Shown piece by piece: positions 6,280-36,800 of a stretch of DNA of 64,000 bases (position 1 is its first letter; each line of letters opens with the position of its first letter). The notes beneath the pieces were generated by a model, which ran no database searches, was not told the origin of the DNA, and worked only from the letters and a program-made list of their open reading frames with translations. A program made the translations under genes and the position numbers. Origin of the DNA: Bradyrhizobium sp. LHD-71 (lineage in GTDB: Bacteria > Pseudomonadota > Alphaproteobacteria > Rhizobiales > Xanthobacteraceae); contig NZ_JAVIFX010000006.1 of NCBI RefSeq assembly GCF_031157255.1, positions 62,001 through 126,000 on the forward strand. Direction: 5' to 3'.

Positions 6280-6366
6280 GTAGCCCGCATGAGCACAGCG
6301 ATATGCGGGAGCGGCCTCGCAGGCGACTGATGCTGTCCCGCATGTCGCTCCGCTCATGCGGGCTAC
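6280..6366. repeat. Long inverted repeat between convergent genes
   Basis: A 31-nt left arm (6280-6310, starting GTAGCCCGCATGAGC) is mirrored by a 31-nt right arm (6336-6366, ending GCTCATGCGGGCTAC) with a few mismatches and a 25-nt loop. It sits between the converging lpxA-type and glgP genes, so it can act as a bidirectional transcription barrier. The arm sequence resembles a common rhizobial intergenic repeat. Confidence 0.75.
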
Positions 6367-8910: not shown

Positions 8911-11661
8911 TCAGGCACGCGACAGCGCGCGATCATTACGCACGGTTTTAGTCAGCCCTGCGTGGTGCGGATATACTACTGCCGGTATATCCCCCAACAA
9001 TTGGCCGACATCGAGTTCCATTGCGTCGATGCTAATCCGCGCATTCAGCATGCTGAAATCCGGGGAGGCGCCGCCGTCACGGGTAAACGGGGCGAAATGG
9101 CGCAATGCAACAACAGAACAGGCCTGATCGCGGTAGTGACGGGTGAAGGCGATCACGTGTTCCGCATGGGGTCCCTGCACGGCCAGAGGAATATAGCCGC
9201 CGAGCGCGAAAACGTTCGAATAGCGCTGTCGAAGCTCGAGCAAATGGCGCGTCCACGCCAGCTTGATGGTTCCATCTTCCCACGTGTCCGCGAACATCAG
9301 GGGTTTTTGGCGGATCGCACTTAAGCGCCCGGCGCGCGCCGGAAAATCCACCGGCCGGCGGTTGTCTGGATCGACCAATGACAGATCCCACAGCTCGGTT
9401 CCCTGATAGAAATCGGGAACTCCGGGAACGGTCGCTTTCAGCGTCAGCTGGCTGAGACTGTTGAGCGCTCCAAGCAATGCTGCGCGGCGCGCAAACAAGG
9501 CAAACGAGTCCAGGAAGCCCGGTGCAGCGCTGGCATCGAGGATGCGTGCGACGAACGCCCTGATGCCTTCTTCATAGTCAGAGTTCGGATTGAGCCAGCT
9601 GGACTGCAGCTTCTCCTCGCGGATGGCCTTTTGCACGTATTGCTGGAACCGCGCGACGAAGTCGGACGTGATGCCGTCGAGCGGCCAGGCGCCGATCAAC
9701 GCCTGGTAAATCATGTACTCATCGACAAGCGACGGACACCGCTGGCCGCGCGCCTGCGTCACGAAGCGCGCGTTCTGCGTCTTCCACTGGCCGATAGCGC
9801 CGCCCCAGTCGCCCGCGAGCTCGGCGACGGCGAGAATGCGCATCCGTGCGTCTTCGCCACGCTTGGTGTCATGGGTCGCCGTGGCGGTGAGTCCCTTGGG
9901 CCATTGTCGCGCCCGCTCCGCCATATTCGCATGGAAGGTTGCAAGCGGCATTGCCGGTGCGGCGGGATTGCCGCCAACCTCGTTCAGCGCCAGGAGCAGC
10001 GGGTAGCGGTAGAAGGCGGTATCCTCCAGCGACTTCGCCATCAAGGGCCCAGTGAACTGCTGGACCTTGGAGGCGAAGCGGCGCACCCGCGCACGGCTGT
10101 GCAGCGCGCGACCGGGAAGAAGCAGGTCGAGGGTGAGCGCATCGCGCAGGAAATCGAAAATGCCGTCGTCCGCGGCAAACCATTCGGCCTGCGCCTTTCT
10201 GATCGCCTGTTCGATCGTCTCGCGATCGCTGCTGCTGACGCTGCGGCCTCTGATATAGGTCCGGTAGACCGGGAAATGCAGCACAAACAGCGTCAGCGCC
10301 TGTCGCAGGCTGTCTTCGGAATAGTCGCGGGTCGAGTGGTGTCCGGCGGCGATGCGTGCCAGCAATCGCGTCAGGACCGTGAATTCACTGACGAGCAGCG
10401 TCTCGAGCACGCGGCGCTTGGCCTCGATCAAGACCGGTTCGAATGCCGGCGCGAGATTGCTCGCCTGCCGCCAGATTTCCTTGAGCTCGTCCTGACCTTG
10501 CGGAAACATCAGGACCTGGCTGAACTGGTTCAGCCACTCATATCCGGTCGTGCCGTCGCAGGCTTCAAATCCCTGCAACGTCTCATCCTCGCCGAGGATC
10601 TTCTCGATCAGCAGGATGAAGGGGCGAGGGGAGGCACCTTGCGCCTTGCGAATCAGCCGTCGCAGCCGCTGCAGGTATTGCACCGGGTCATGCAGGCCGT
10701 CGATGTGGTCGATGCGCAGGCCCTGGAGCTTGTCTTCGGCAATGAGGCGATGCACCAGCGCATGCACGCGTTCGAACGTTTCGCCATCCTCGATGCGCAG
10801 TCCTGCAAGCGAGTTGATGTCGAAGAAGCGCCGATAGTTGATGTCGCTGCTCGCCAGTCGCCAATGCGACAGACGATAGTGCTGGCGCTCCAGAAGATGA
10901 TGAAGCGCAGTGACTTGCGCGGGGCCGTTTGGCGCGCGGAACGCCTCCAGTCCTTCTGCGATGACAGCGTCACCGCCGGCGATTTGCGCAAGCTCCTGTT
11001 CGAGCCTTGGCGCGGCGCGCTGGTCGGGATTGTTCGGGCCGCTGTAACGCTCCGCGACTTCGAGCAGAGCCGCGCCCGCGGCCGTGTGTGAGGCTTGCGC
11101 GGCCGCGACGATGACGCGCAGGATCTCGCTGTATCTCTGCGGCGCGATCGGAAGCTTGTGCTCATAATAATACGCGCTGAACTTGCCGGCAGCGTAGCGT
11201 AGTTCGATCTGACCCTTGTTCAGGGCTTCGCCATAGGACACGCCGAGGATCGGCAGCAGCAAGCCCGGTTTTCGCCGATGCGGCAGCATGTCCCAATCGA
11301 TATCGAACGACTTAGCGTAGCGCGATTTCGGTCCCCATTCGAGAATATCCAGCCACCAGTCATTGTCCGAGTAATGCACGCCCATGTGGTTCGGAACGAA
11401 ATCCAGGATCAGGCCGAGGCTGTTGGCTTTGAGCGCGGCGCTGAGCTTTTCGAAGCCGGCTTCGCCGCCGAGCTCGGGATTAAAGGCGGTATGATCGACC
11501 ACGTCGTAGCCGTGGGTGCTGCCGCTGCGCGCCCGCGTGAATGGCGAGGCGTAAACGTGCGTGATGCCAAGCGCTTTCAGATAAGGCACGACGGCTGCGG
11601 CCGGCTCGAATCCGAAGTCCTTCGTGAGCTGCAGACGGTAGGTGGCAAGCGCGGTCGTCAC
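8911..11661 (-). CDS. treY: Malto-oligosyltrehalose synthase
   Basis: A 916-residue GH13 enzyme that converts the reducing end of a malto-oligosaccharide to a trehalosyl end. TreY landmarks include TYRLQLTKDFGF at the N-terminus, ASPFTRARSGSTHGYDVVD, INYRRFFDINSLAGLR, the nucleophile in LRIDHIDGL (D318) and the acid in LIEKILGE (E353). The GTG at 11661 is preceded by GGAGCAATA and gives the expected TreY N-terminus; a longer frame starting at 11700 would run through a palindrome and is unlikely. Its ribosome binding site is the inner end of that hairpin, so translation may be restrained. The substrate comes from GlgX/GlgE products and the product goes to TreZ. Confidence 0.96.
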   Translation of the reverse strand: MTTALATYRLQLTKDFGFEPAAAVVPYLKALGITHVYASPFTRARSGSTHGYDVVDHTAFNPELGGEAGFEKLSAALKANSLGLILDFVPNHMGVHYSDNDWWLDILEWGPKSRYAKSFDIDWDMLPHRRKPGLLLPILGVSYGEALNKGQIELRYAAGKFSAYYYEHKLPIAPQRYSEILRVIVAAAQASHTAAGAALLEVAERYSGPNNPDQRAAPRLEQELAQIAGGDAVIAEGLEAFRAPNGPAQVTALHHLLERQHYRLSHWRLASSDINYRRFFDINSLAGLRIEDGETFERVHALVHRLIAEDKLQGLRIDHIDGLHDPVQYLQRLRRLIRKAQGASPRPFILLIEKILGEDETLQGFEACDGTTGYEWLNQFSQVLMFPQGQDELKEIWRQASNLAPAFEPVLIEAKRRVLETLLVSEFTVLTRLLARIAAGHHSTRDYSEDSLRQALTLFVLHFPVYRTYIRGRSVSSSDRETIEQAIRKAQAEWFAADDGIFDFLRDALTLDLLLPGRALHSRARVRRFASKVQQFTGPLMAKSLEDTAFYRYPLLLALNEVGGNPAAPAMPLATFHANMAERARQWPKGLTATATHDTKRGEDARMRILAVAELAGDWGGAIGQWKTQNARFVTQARGQRCPSLVDEYMIYQALIGAWPLDGITSDFVARFQQYVQKAIREEKLQSSWLNPNSDYEEGIRAFVARILDASAAPGFLDSFALFARRAALLGALNSLSQLTLKATVPGVPDFYQGTELWDLSLVDPDNRRPVDFPARAGRLSAIRQKPLMFADTWEDGTIKLAWTRHLLELRQRYSNVFALGGYIPLAVQGPHAEHVIAFTRHYRDQACSVVALRHFAPFTRDGGASPDFSMLNARISIDAMELDVGQLLGDIPAVVYPHHAGLTKTVRNDRALSRA

Positions 11662-11737
11662 TATTGCTCCGTTTCCGAAGTTCGCATCACGTCGCGGCAC
11701 ACTCTACATGCGAACTTCGGAAACATAAGGAGCAATA
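11662..11737 (-). repeat. Palindromic element 1A covering the treY ribosome binding site
   Basis: A near-perfect foldback: outer 9-bp stem (TATTGCTCC with GGAGCAATA), an unpaired ATAA on the right arm (11725-11728), an inner perfect 17-bp stem (11671-11687 with 11708-11724) and a 20-nt loop containing GCGGCA. In the treY transcript the SD sequence GGAG is part of the outer stem, directly next to the GTG start. It is paired with element 1B, 14 bp away and in opposite orientation. Confidence 0.85.
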
Positions 11738-11751
11738 GCAAGTTTATGATG

Positions 11752-11830
11752 CCAGTGCCGCTTATCGATTTGAAATTCCTTGTATGAGCTCGCCGCAGGT
11801 GGTGCAGGAATTTCAAATCGGCGGCGCTGG
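11752..11830 (+). repeat. Palindromic element 1B covering the end of treZ
   Basis: Outer 10-bp stem with one mismatch (11752-11761 with 11821-11830), an unpaired TTAT on the left arm (11762-11765), an inner perfect 15-bp stem (11766-11780 with 11806-11820) and a 25-nt loop with a GCCGC core. Its architecture is that of element 1A but inverted, and the arm sequence is unrelated. The treZ stop codon (11813-11815) and the last residues of TreZ lie inside the right arm. Confidence 0.82.
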
Positions 11831-25185: not shown

Positions 25186-25307
25186 CATTGTACCCCGGTA
25201 TCCCGCGCCGCGATCTCTCCTGCCGACAGGTCTATGAGTGAGGTGCCGATCTGCCGTTCGTACGGCGGCGATCGGGACCGAGCGTCAAATCCGGCGCATT
25301 GGCGCCG

Positions 25308-25383
25308 CTAGTGTCCCGAATCCGAAGTTCGCCATACTTCGCGGCACGCTCAGAGCGAACTTCGGATTCGATAAGGACACTAG
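25308..25383. repeat. Palindromic element 2A
   Basis: Perfect 9-bp outer stem (CTAGTGTCC with GGACACTAG), an unpaired ATAA on the right arm (25371-25374), perfect 16-bp inner stem (25317-25332 with 25355-25370) and a 22-nt loop holding GCGGCA. The bulge sits at the same place as in 1A although the outer arms differ in sequence. It lies 123 bp after malQ, in the convergent gap before the response regulator. Confidence 0.85.
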
Positions 25384-25398
25384 CAAAGTCATAATTCT

Positions 25399-25474
25399 AG
25401 TGTCGTTCATGGTTCAGAAATTCGCTCCTCGGATTCGCGGCAAATGATGGAGCGAACTTCTGAACCACGACACT
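25399..25474. repeat. Palindromic element 2B
   Basis: Seven-bp outer stem (AGTGTCG with CGACACT), an unpaired TTCA on the left arm (25406-25409), a 19-bp inner stem with one mismatch (25410-25428 with 25449-25467) and a 20-nt loop with GCGGCA. It is inverted relative to 2A, 15 bp away. Its right edge runs into a CTAG (25477-25480) that forms the stop codon of the response regulator. Confidence 0.82.
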
Positions 25475-25476
25475 GG

Positions 25477-36038: not shown

Positions 36039-36641
36039 ATGTTGAGACAAATCCGCCCGGCGCTGGTCCTGTTTGTCGCGCTGACGGTGATCACCGGACT
36101 GCTCTATCCCCTGGCGATCACCGGCATCGCGGGCGTGATCTTCCCGCGTCAGGCGCAAGGAAGCCTGATCGAACGGGACGGCAAGGTCATCGGTTCTGAG
36201 CTGATCGGTCAGGCGTTTACCGAGGACAAGTACTTCCACGGACGACCGTCGGCAACGACCGGTCCGGACCCGCAGGATTCGACCAAGACGACGGCGGCGC
36301 CCTACAATGCTTCGAACTCGATGGGCTCGAATCTGGGACCGACCAACAAGAGCTTGATCGAACGGGTCAAAGGCGACGTCGAAAAGGCACAGGCGGAGAA
36401 TTCCGCCGCGCCCGTACCAGTCGACCTCGTGACGACGTCGGGCAGCGGTCTCGACCCGCATATCTCACCAGAAAGTGCGATGTTCCAGGTGCCGCGCGTC
36501 GCCAAGGCGCGTAACATTCCCGAAGAGCGCCTCCGCGTGCTTGTCCAAGAGCATATGGAGAGCCGCCTGGCGGGCATACTGGGCGAGCCGCGGGTTAATG
36601 TGCTGGCGCTCAATCTTGCACTGGATCAGGGAGCGCGCTAG
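36039..36641 (+). CDS. kdpC: Potassium-transporting ATPase subunit KdpC
   Basis: A 200-residue membrane-anchored subunit: one N-terminal helix ([20 protein letters not shown]), [31 protein letters not shown] and the C-terminal [20 protein letters not shown] and LNLALDQ that define KdpC. It is needed for assembly and ATP affinity of the pump. Starts 11 bp after kdpB with GAGGAGG. The stop codon TAG (36639-36641) is also the first three bases of palindromic element 3A. Confidence 0.97.
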
Positions 36642-36715
36642 TGCGCTGGATTTGACGTTCGTACCATCCTTGCCGCGGCTCCTGTGTACGAACGTCAAAA
36701 TCCAAAAACGCACTA
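36639..36715. repeat. Palindromic element 3A, starting on the kdpC stop codon
   Basis: Outer 7-bp stem TAGTGCG/CGCACTA (36639-36645 with 36709-36715), an A-rich bulge on the right arm (36704-36708), a 17-18-bp inner stem with one single-base bulge (36648-36664 with 36686-36703) and a ~21-nt loop with TGCCGCGGC. Same plan as elements 1A and 2A with different arm sequence. It separates kdpC from kdpD. Confidence 0.82.
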
Positions 36716-36722
36716 ACTTTAC

Positions 36723-36800
36723 AAAGTGGCTGCTCTTGGTTCTAACGTTCGCAGACGAGATTGCCGCAAAGTGATGCGAACGTTAGAACCGGGACACTAG
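36723..36800. repeat. Palindromic element 3B upstream of kdpD
   Basis: Perfect 16-bp inner stem (GGTTCTAACGTTCGCA at 36738-36753 with 36775-36790) and a 21-nt loop with TGCCGC. The right end is GGGACACTAG (36791-36800), while the left outer arm is degraded. The inferred bulge is on the left arm, so it is inverted relative to 3A. It ends 35 bp before the kdpD start. Confidence 0.8.

Follow-up and report, generated by a model that had tools for sequence, protein, structure and literature searches.

How the short bacterial hairpin repeats that carry no genes (the CIR, RIME and REP-like repeats) spread is an open question, and the first of these reportedly go back to a paper of Chen and Shapiro in 2003. 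In extracts of a 2007 review, the CIR (Caulobacter CcrM-associated intergenic repeats, CIR1 to CIR4) are described as intergenic elements of the Alphaproteobacteria, about 110 bp long, in which two long inverted repeats form arms joined by a linker, with TA termini, a richness in GANTC and a GANTC at the terminal loop; the same extracts state that the mechanism of their mobility still needs more information (PMC2229807). The REP/BIME repeats associated with RAYT transposases are presented, in the available part of their description, as stem-loops of 20-40 bp carrying a GTAG or CGTC tag, and some RAYT-linked repeats as self-complementary TIRs arranged in dimers (PMC3733652). In Bradyrhizobium, excerpts of a further paper describe Br-REP1 and Br-REP2 as intergenic palindromes, of which Br-REP1 can have flanking palindromes (PMC5082802).

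Here, we analyse a family of two-hairpin units present in a 64-kb stretch of the genome of Bradyrhizobium sp. LHD-71 (hereafter, the window). The element is real, abundant and recently spread, its shape is conserved and it is located at CTAG.

Two-hairpin units in the window and their anatomy

The sequence-only reading of the window had described six palindromes arranged in three pairs, each with an outer stem, a one-sided bulge, an inner stem and a loop, the two members of a pair facing each other. All six foldbacks were found again within a few bases of the positions given, and folding confirmed in each of them the outer stem, the bulge on one side, the inner stem and a loop of 20-25 nt. The bulges do lie on opposite arms within each pair, and hairpin 3B has lost the larger part of the outer arm on its linker side. 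It is the pair, not the single palindrome, that forms the natural unit: it is about 168 bp long and ends with CTAG or a one-letter variant of it (Table 1). A covariance model built from the six window hairpins (R1) detected just these six places in the window, at 68.7-91.1 bits on the modelled strand and more weakly on the opposite one; the sole further match scored 14.1 bits (E 0.21).

Unit 1, which is flanked by two alpha-amylase-family genes, ends with CTAT and CTGG instead of CTAG. Unit 2, with CTAG on the left and CTGG on the right, has a GH77 (malQ-like) gene and a response-regulator gene as neighbours. Unit 3 has CTAG at both outer ends and sits between kdpC and kdpD (all neighbours identified by Pfam); the kdpC product matches the KdpC Pfam model through its final position (1-182/182). 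The probable arm remnant directly left of unit 2 (C6:87278) shows three mismatches to the 3A arm.

Table 1. Coordinates of the two-hairpin units and associated features in the window.
Feature	Position	Strand	Description
Unit 1	11661..11830	.	Older, diverged copy; R1 91.1 + 78.2 bits
Hairpin 1A	11661-11738
Linker of unit 1	11739-11751
Hairpin 1B	11752-11830
3A-type outer-arm remnant, probable	25278..25302	-	CCAATGCGCCGGATTTGACGCTCGG on the minus strand; directly left of unit 2
Unit 2	25308..25476	.	Major-subfamily copy; R1 80.3 + 86.1 bits
Hairpin 2A (alpha)	25308-25383
Linker of unit 2	25384-25396
Hairpin 2B (beta)	25397-25476
Unit 3	36638..36800	.	R1 81.1 + 68.7 bits
Hairpin 3A	36638-36716
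Hairpin 3B	about 36723-36800		Linker-side outer arm degenerate
Left-end CTAG of unit 3	36638..36641	+	TAG 36639-36641 is the stop codon of kdpC (36039-36641)

Two other structured features were observed in the window. A 31-bp inverted repeat at 6280-6366 (GTAGCCCGCATGAGC../..GCTCATGCGGGCTAC) is a GTAG-type REP, of a family separate from the two-hairpin units, and resembles the REPs around a broken Y1 transposase gene (L061) of the same genome. A cobalamin riboswitch (RF00174, 40796-41009, 115.8 bits) is the sole Rfam match of the window at gathering score. The units themselves have no match among the Rfam covariance models, at gathering scores or at E up to 5.

The plan of a unit is CTAG, hairpin, linker of about 14 nt, hairpin and CTAG, and it is non-coding. 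An alpha and a beta hairpin are joined in 38 of 42 units from many genomes, the other four being unclear. The alpha half has the end CTAGCAA and the consensus CTAGTGTCCCGATTCCGAAGTTCGC, and the beta half the end CTAGAAN and the consensus CTAGTGTcGcGGaTTtGAAGTTCGC. The bulge (AAA, ATAA and similar) is located in the linker-side arm, where it separates the outer from the inner stem, which places the two halves face to face in those intact pairs that were inspected. The loop core is mostly GCGGC/GCCGC-like, and GATATC-like in several Mesorhizobium units and in the Bosea unit, the core type having switched in both halves of a unit together. The units are rich in GANTC (76 sites in 42 units vs 28 in mononucleotide shuffles; 10.5 per kb vs 2.15 in contig C6). 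These sites lie in the alpha stem, whose 5' arm has one in 23 of 38 hairpins, and in the linkers of 15 of the 42 units. They are not a feature of the loops, in which they were counted in two alpha and four beta hairpins out of 38 each (shuffles 2.5 and 2.9). In one locus of genome G034 (L082:1501-1761), three consecutive hairpins are joined at CTAG in the order beta, beta, alpha; an internal CTAG was apparently used as an end.

Abundance, distribution and the CTAG site

The genome of this bacterium (G000) is available as a draft of 7.48 Mb, in which C numbers designate contigs and L numbers extracted loci. The window copies are three among many: the arm pattern CTAGTGTCNNGNNNNNGAANTTCGC has 141 exact matches in the 7.48 Mb (72 + 69), vs 0 for the reversed control, and R1 matched at least 150 candidates, i.e., every candidate scored. 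In 1.1 Mb of contigs C3, C4 and C6 (minus their ends), stretches chosen regardless of matches, we counted 37 units, 29 with both halves found and eight in which a single half was found, the second being deduced from its place; three partial matches (L119:25, L125:14646 and L130:8394) were left out. Nine of the 37 are clearly degenerate. Scaling this count, with 16% of the genome fully read, gives an estimated total of about 250 units. According to crude gene calls, 14 of the 37 units lie between tandem, nine between divergent and seven between convergent genes, and seven overlap a predicted gene. A single consensus is matched at 93% identity or more by 30 of the 43 full copies recovered from G000 loci. 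The first bases of contigs C7, C8, C33, C38, C39, C41, C44, C51 and C60 lie inside a hairpin of the family; the repeat thus breaks the draft assembly.

The family is patchy across Alphaproteobacteria. With R1 at E <= 1e-4 as the threshold, 20 of 61 genomes of relatives (G000 counted) are carriers, and the 24 genomes of this sample that belong to other families of the order include none. Confinement to one bacterial family, suggested by the latter result, was dropped after carriers turned up in 18 families in a sample of the order (at least 68 of 397 genomes). At least 21 of 385 genomes in a sample of the class have R1 matches, 20 of them from outside the order, and at least 16 of 398 in a sample of the phylum that includes the class, all 16 inside the class. 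These carrier counts are lower bounds, since the large samples were scored for at most 11 candidates per genome with stricter filters. The linker pattern retrieved 72 stretches, whose R1-confirmed carriers include Nitrobacter, a Bradyrhizobium MAG, Mesorhizobium, Phyllobacterium and Bosea. The stretches of an archaeal MAG (L209) and of Aquibacillus (L258), which are absent among the R1 matches listed (300 of 323), are probably due to chance. Unit 2 and the linker pattern, used as queries, had no match in collections of phages, plasmids and viral contigs.

CTAG is about 10-fold rarer than expected from base composition in the 1.1 Mb of G000 (375 vs about 3750), and the units account for about a quarter of these few sites (96 of 375). 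It is present at nearly all ends of the 43 full copies, in whose flanks no duplication longer than CTAG was seen by eye. Tandem units share exactly one CTAG as overlap (C10:5702-5747 and C19:86290-86335; also L245) and, at L219, one unit is nested in the internal CTAG of another. Both filled and empty sites were found. Two units (L053 and L154:4588) occupy the internal CTAG of a second repeat family, of which unoccupied copies were also seen, reading ..CGAATCTAGAGCGC.. at this place. A congener (G001) is devoid of unit 3 at the orthologous place: kdpC encodes 200 aa in both genomes, the TAG is at the same codon in G001 with G instead of C as the preceding base, and the aligned stretches flanking the site are 20 bp apart in G001 vs 189 bp in the window. 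Unit 3 is likewise absent from the orthologous place in G025. The G001 stretch past the malQ-like gene contains no R1 match, and it does not align at the unit 2 site. The two flanking CTAGs would fit either a 4-bp duplication or an insertion beside a CTAG with one CTAG carried at the end of the unit, which are indistinguishable in the sequence.

The second family is also made of CTAG-bounded hairpins (CTAGAGCATTTTCCGGAAAAGTGG..CGAATCTAGAGCGCTTTCC..); it was observed at 11 places in contigs C3, C4 and C6 of G000 and at none in the window.

In 10 of the 37 units, the outer CTAG doubles as the stop codon of a neighbouring gene (as called by a crude gene finder). We considered a role of the units at stop codons and rejected it: of the 279 CTAGs found elsewhere than in units, 120 are located within genes and 50 form stop codons, and the 10 of 37 compare with 50 of 159 non-genic CTAGs, so that the supply of sites explains the association. 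Units are found at stop codons because CTAG itself is found there.

Arm covariation and the mode of spread

Covariation was studied on 84 hairpins, from 42 hand-chosen units (at most two from any genome or contig), aligned with MAFFT without structural information, the structure being then derived from the same alignment. Standard pairs occupy 96.3% of the 2015 cells, and pairing falls to 44.6% or less when the partner is slid out of register. Double (compensatory) changes are present at 21 of the 24 pairs, in 415 cells, and none of the 500 shuffles reached any of these measures; since the rows are related, with Mesorhizobium and Nitrobacter recurrent, and the structure comes from the alignment itself, these cells are not independent events. 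The two poorly paired positions (13-82 and 29-60, with 19 and 21 of 84 rows unpaired) are a matter of register. This very strong covariation of the arms bears out the idea of one family whose structure is preserved despite sequence turnover. By type, the 2015 cells comprise 1917 Watson-Crick pairs, 23 G-U pairs and 75 others. RNAs with a conserved fold usually show many more G-U pairs, and their scarcity here suggests that the constraint on the fold acts on DNA. Outer arms are 97% identical to their own partner vs 69% to the opposite outer arm of the unit, which indicates that the conserved thing is each local foldback.

The two halves of a unit also change together, at stem columns 10, 11 and 22 and loop columns 30, 31, 42 and 44 (0 of 1000 shuffles for each, about 75 columns having been tested). 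These changes fit a single factor reading both hairpins, although common ancestry may contribute. We do not claim a kissing interaction between the alpha and beta loops, even though the loop cores co-change (columns 42 and 44); the halves are inverted homologues, and likeness to each other's complement is therefore expected without kissing.

We favour, with a probability of about 0.7, the explanation that the unit is mobile but non-autonomous and that an enzyme provided in trans acts on its folded DNA; a host function is probably not needed to account for the units. The unit would insert at CTAG, leaving CTAG on either side. The covariation suggests that the enzyme recognises both hairpins as folded DNA, either single-stranded or as a cruciform, and it would then move or copy the unit. 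If only well-folded units propagate, the fold would be filtered at each round while the letters of the arms drift, in step between the two halves at some positions. A single-strand mechanism (HUH, IS200-like) would fit the hairpins, the bulges and the tetranucleotide site, although no such gene could be linked to the units. Templated correction of the arms, or their recognition as a duplex, could give part of the covariation pattern.

Neither movement of the units nor a mobilising gene was seen in the stretches and genomes examined. An autonomous partner was sought in 1.1-1.2 Mb of G000, as cargo, long-range inverted pairs or partnerless arms, and none was found; the search yielded plain pairs and single and decayed copies only, all without cargo, and neighbouring units have host genes between them. 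For instance, two matches 1.5 kb apart at L126 (13558 and 15001), considered as a candidate autonomous element, are two decayed units enclosing host genes. An R1 scan of nine low-copy genomes detected no cargo-bearing relative among the matches listed. The transposase flanked by the same structure that the sequence-only reading had envisaged was thus not found in the G000 stretches, the Y1 loci or the low-copy genomes.

The search also gave no support to a RAYT as the mobiliser, since the RAYT-type genes carry other repeats: the only Y1_Tnp match of G000 has an internal stop and is set among GTAG-type repeats (L061), and several Y1 genes in this bacterial family lie between GTAG-type inverted repeats. 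Eight R1-positive genomes, including G000, have Y1_Tnp matches and 10 other R1 carriers were listed without one, suggesting that the units can be carried without a Y1 gene, although the carriers without one may have lost it. Two of the 30 Y1 loci have an R1 match, in neither case as a flanking pair: a whole unit lies near an IS200-like gene at L090, and an R1 match 1.1 kb away at L106. At L090 (1350-2000, genome G034), the IS200-like element, with a tnpA-like ORF of 143 aa, is located at the terminal CTAG of the unit, into which it seems to have inserted.

Could the units be ordinary MITEs, mobilised by a DDE transposase with double-stranded terminal repeats as its recognition sites? Each hairpin would then be a micro-element with its arms as TIRs, and a match between the arms would be required for one transposase to accept both. 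IS families with YTAR or CTAG targets exist (e.g., IS5 or IS701). The CTAG-like 4-bp site indeed flanks each hairpin and not just the whole unit, the three-hairpin array of L082 joins units at an internal CTAG, and the near-absence of G-U pairs also suits a constraint on duplex DNA. However, the two ends of a unit, which in a MITE would share terminal inverted repeats, have only CTAGTG in common, with outer arms 69% alike vs 97% to their inner partners. The one-sided bulge recurs at the same place in most halves, and about 1.2 Mb of G000 contain no insertion sequence with such arms as ends. Taken together, these observations make a MITE origin unlikely.

The decay of resident copies bears on the origin of the covariation. 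In the stems of the 30 recent copies, 44 changes break a pair and 26 are one-sided changes that still pair, vs a single compensated one (copy L130_16618, pair 111-151, A-T to C-G). Recent copies have changed at 2.1% of stem positions (73/3524) vs 3.2% of unpaired positions (48/1492), a small gap that comes in part from two variable loop positions; resident copies may be under weak selection. Older copies are degenerate. Since recent copies decay one-sidedly after landing, the fold would be filtered at propagation and not through host use, and the covariation would arise between active lineages. The proposal that structure rather than sequence is kept thus holds between subfamilies and species, but not in the sense of each copy being held by selection. 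Similarly, identical arms in all copies, as left by simple recent transposition, are nearly what is found inside the recent subfamily and not at all what is found across subfamilies and species.

The same counts make it very unlikely that complementarity is kept by copying one arm onto the other (by replication slippage or template switching), the fold itself having no role. Such copying would produce the scarcity of G-U pairs, and the clean compensated change of L130_16618 is of the kind that it predicts, but the excess of 70 one-sided changes over one two-sided change indicates that arm correction, if any, is far slower than mutation, and the old copies have become degenerate. Retention by the host as a structured RNA or a regulatory element, acting as a bidirectional terminator, in mRNA stabilisation or in processing, would agree with strong, mostly intergenic hairpins and yet is highly implausible, considering the one-sided decay of residents and the degeneracy of old copies, the 23 G-U pairs in 2015 cells, the presence of units in every gene context, divergent included, and the lack of an Rfam match.

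Relation to described repeats

The family offers several precise handles on the spread of geneless hairpin repeats: the unit is defined (168 bp), its insertion points lie at a rare word, sites occur both filled and empty, and some copies are clearly recent. There is also a built-in readout, the covarying arms almost without G-U pairs, which indicates a fold filtered as DNA. These handles make the question of mobility testable by pull-down or mobility assays. More tentatively, the units could represent a class-wide alphaproteobacterial mobile lineage addressed by shape, i.e., by facing alpha and beta hairpins plus CTAG, with the letters nearly free as long as pairing in the hairpins stays perfect; we find this possible, at less than even odds. 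If it were true, the present family, the second CTAG-bounded family, the pSymB repeat described below and perhaps the CIR would form one superfamily served by one undescribed type of machinery.

A literature search, which included stretches of the sequence and covered few subscription papers, returned no description of the units, a result that does not establish their absence from print. The statement that no described family has this layout was nevertheless too strong, as both the CIR and a repeat of Sinorhizobium meliloti pSymB follow the two-hairpin-plus-linker plan.

Compared with the REP/BIME, as described in the available part of their source, the units are likewise non-autonomous dimers of facing palindromes, often heterodimers; they differ by hairpins of about 77 nt with CTAG at both feet, vs 20-40 bp with a GTAG or CGTC tag. 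The Br-REPs are also intergenic palindromes of related bacteria, but the consensus sequences printed in the excerpts are shorter than the unit arms and unlike them.

The dispersed repeat of S. meliloti pSymB is about 118 bp long and consists of two hairpins with CTAG-like ends and a linker reading CAACTT..GAATC, the right hairpin having a one-sided bulge between its outer and inner stems. Six copies with both hairpins were found among 10 places, with CTAG (by eye) at five of six left and three of six right ends. We take this repeat to be RIME1, reportedly described by Osteras et al. in 1995. It shares with the units the succession of hairpin, linker and bulged hairpin, the CTAG-like ends and a similar linker; it differs by being shorter and by a left hairpin of another sequence, common to the second CTAG-bounded family of G000. 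R1 gave no match at E <= 1 in 400 kb of the 1.68 Mb of pSymB.

Kinship with the CIR is judged by the published description, as far as the extracts of the review give it. On this basis, the units, in the window and in many genomes, agree with the CIR in having two inverted-repeat arms joined by a linker, TA termini (here as CTAG), a richness in GANTC and an intergenic location in Alphaproteobacteria. They differ in length (about 168 bp vs about 110 bp) and in the place of GANTC, which is the terminal loop in the CIR and the alpha stem and some linkers here. The plan of the units thus belongs to the known but little-understood CIR/RIME kind, and the present family is a variant of it, larger in size and with arms that change fast.
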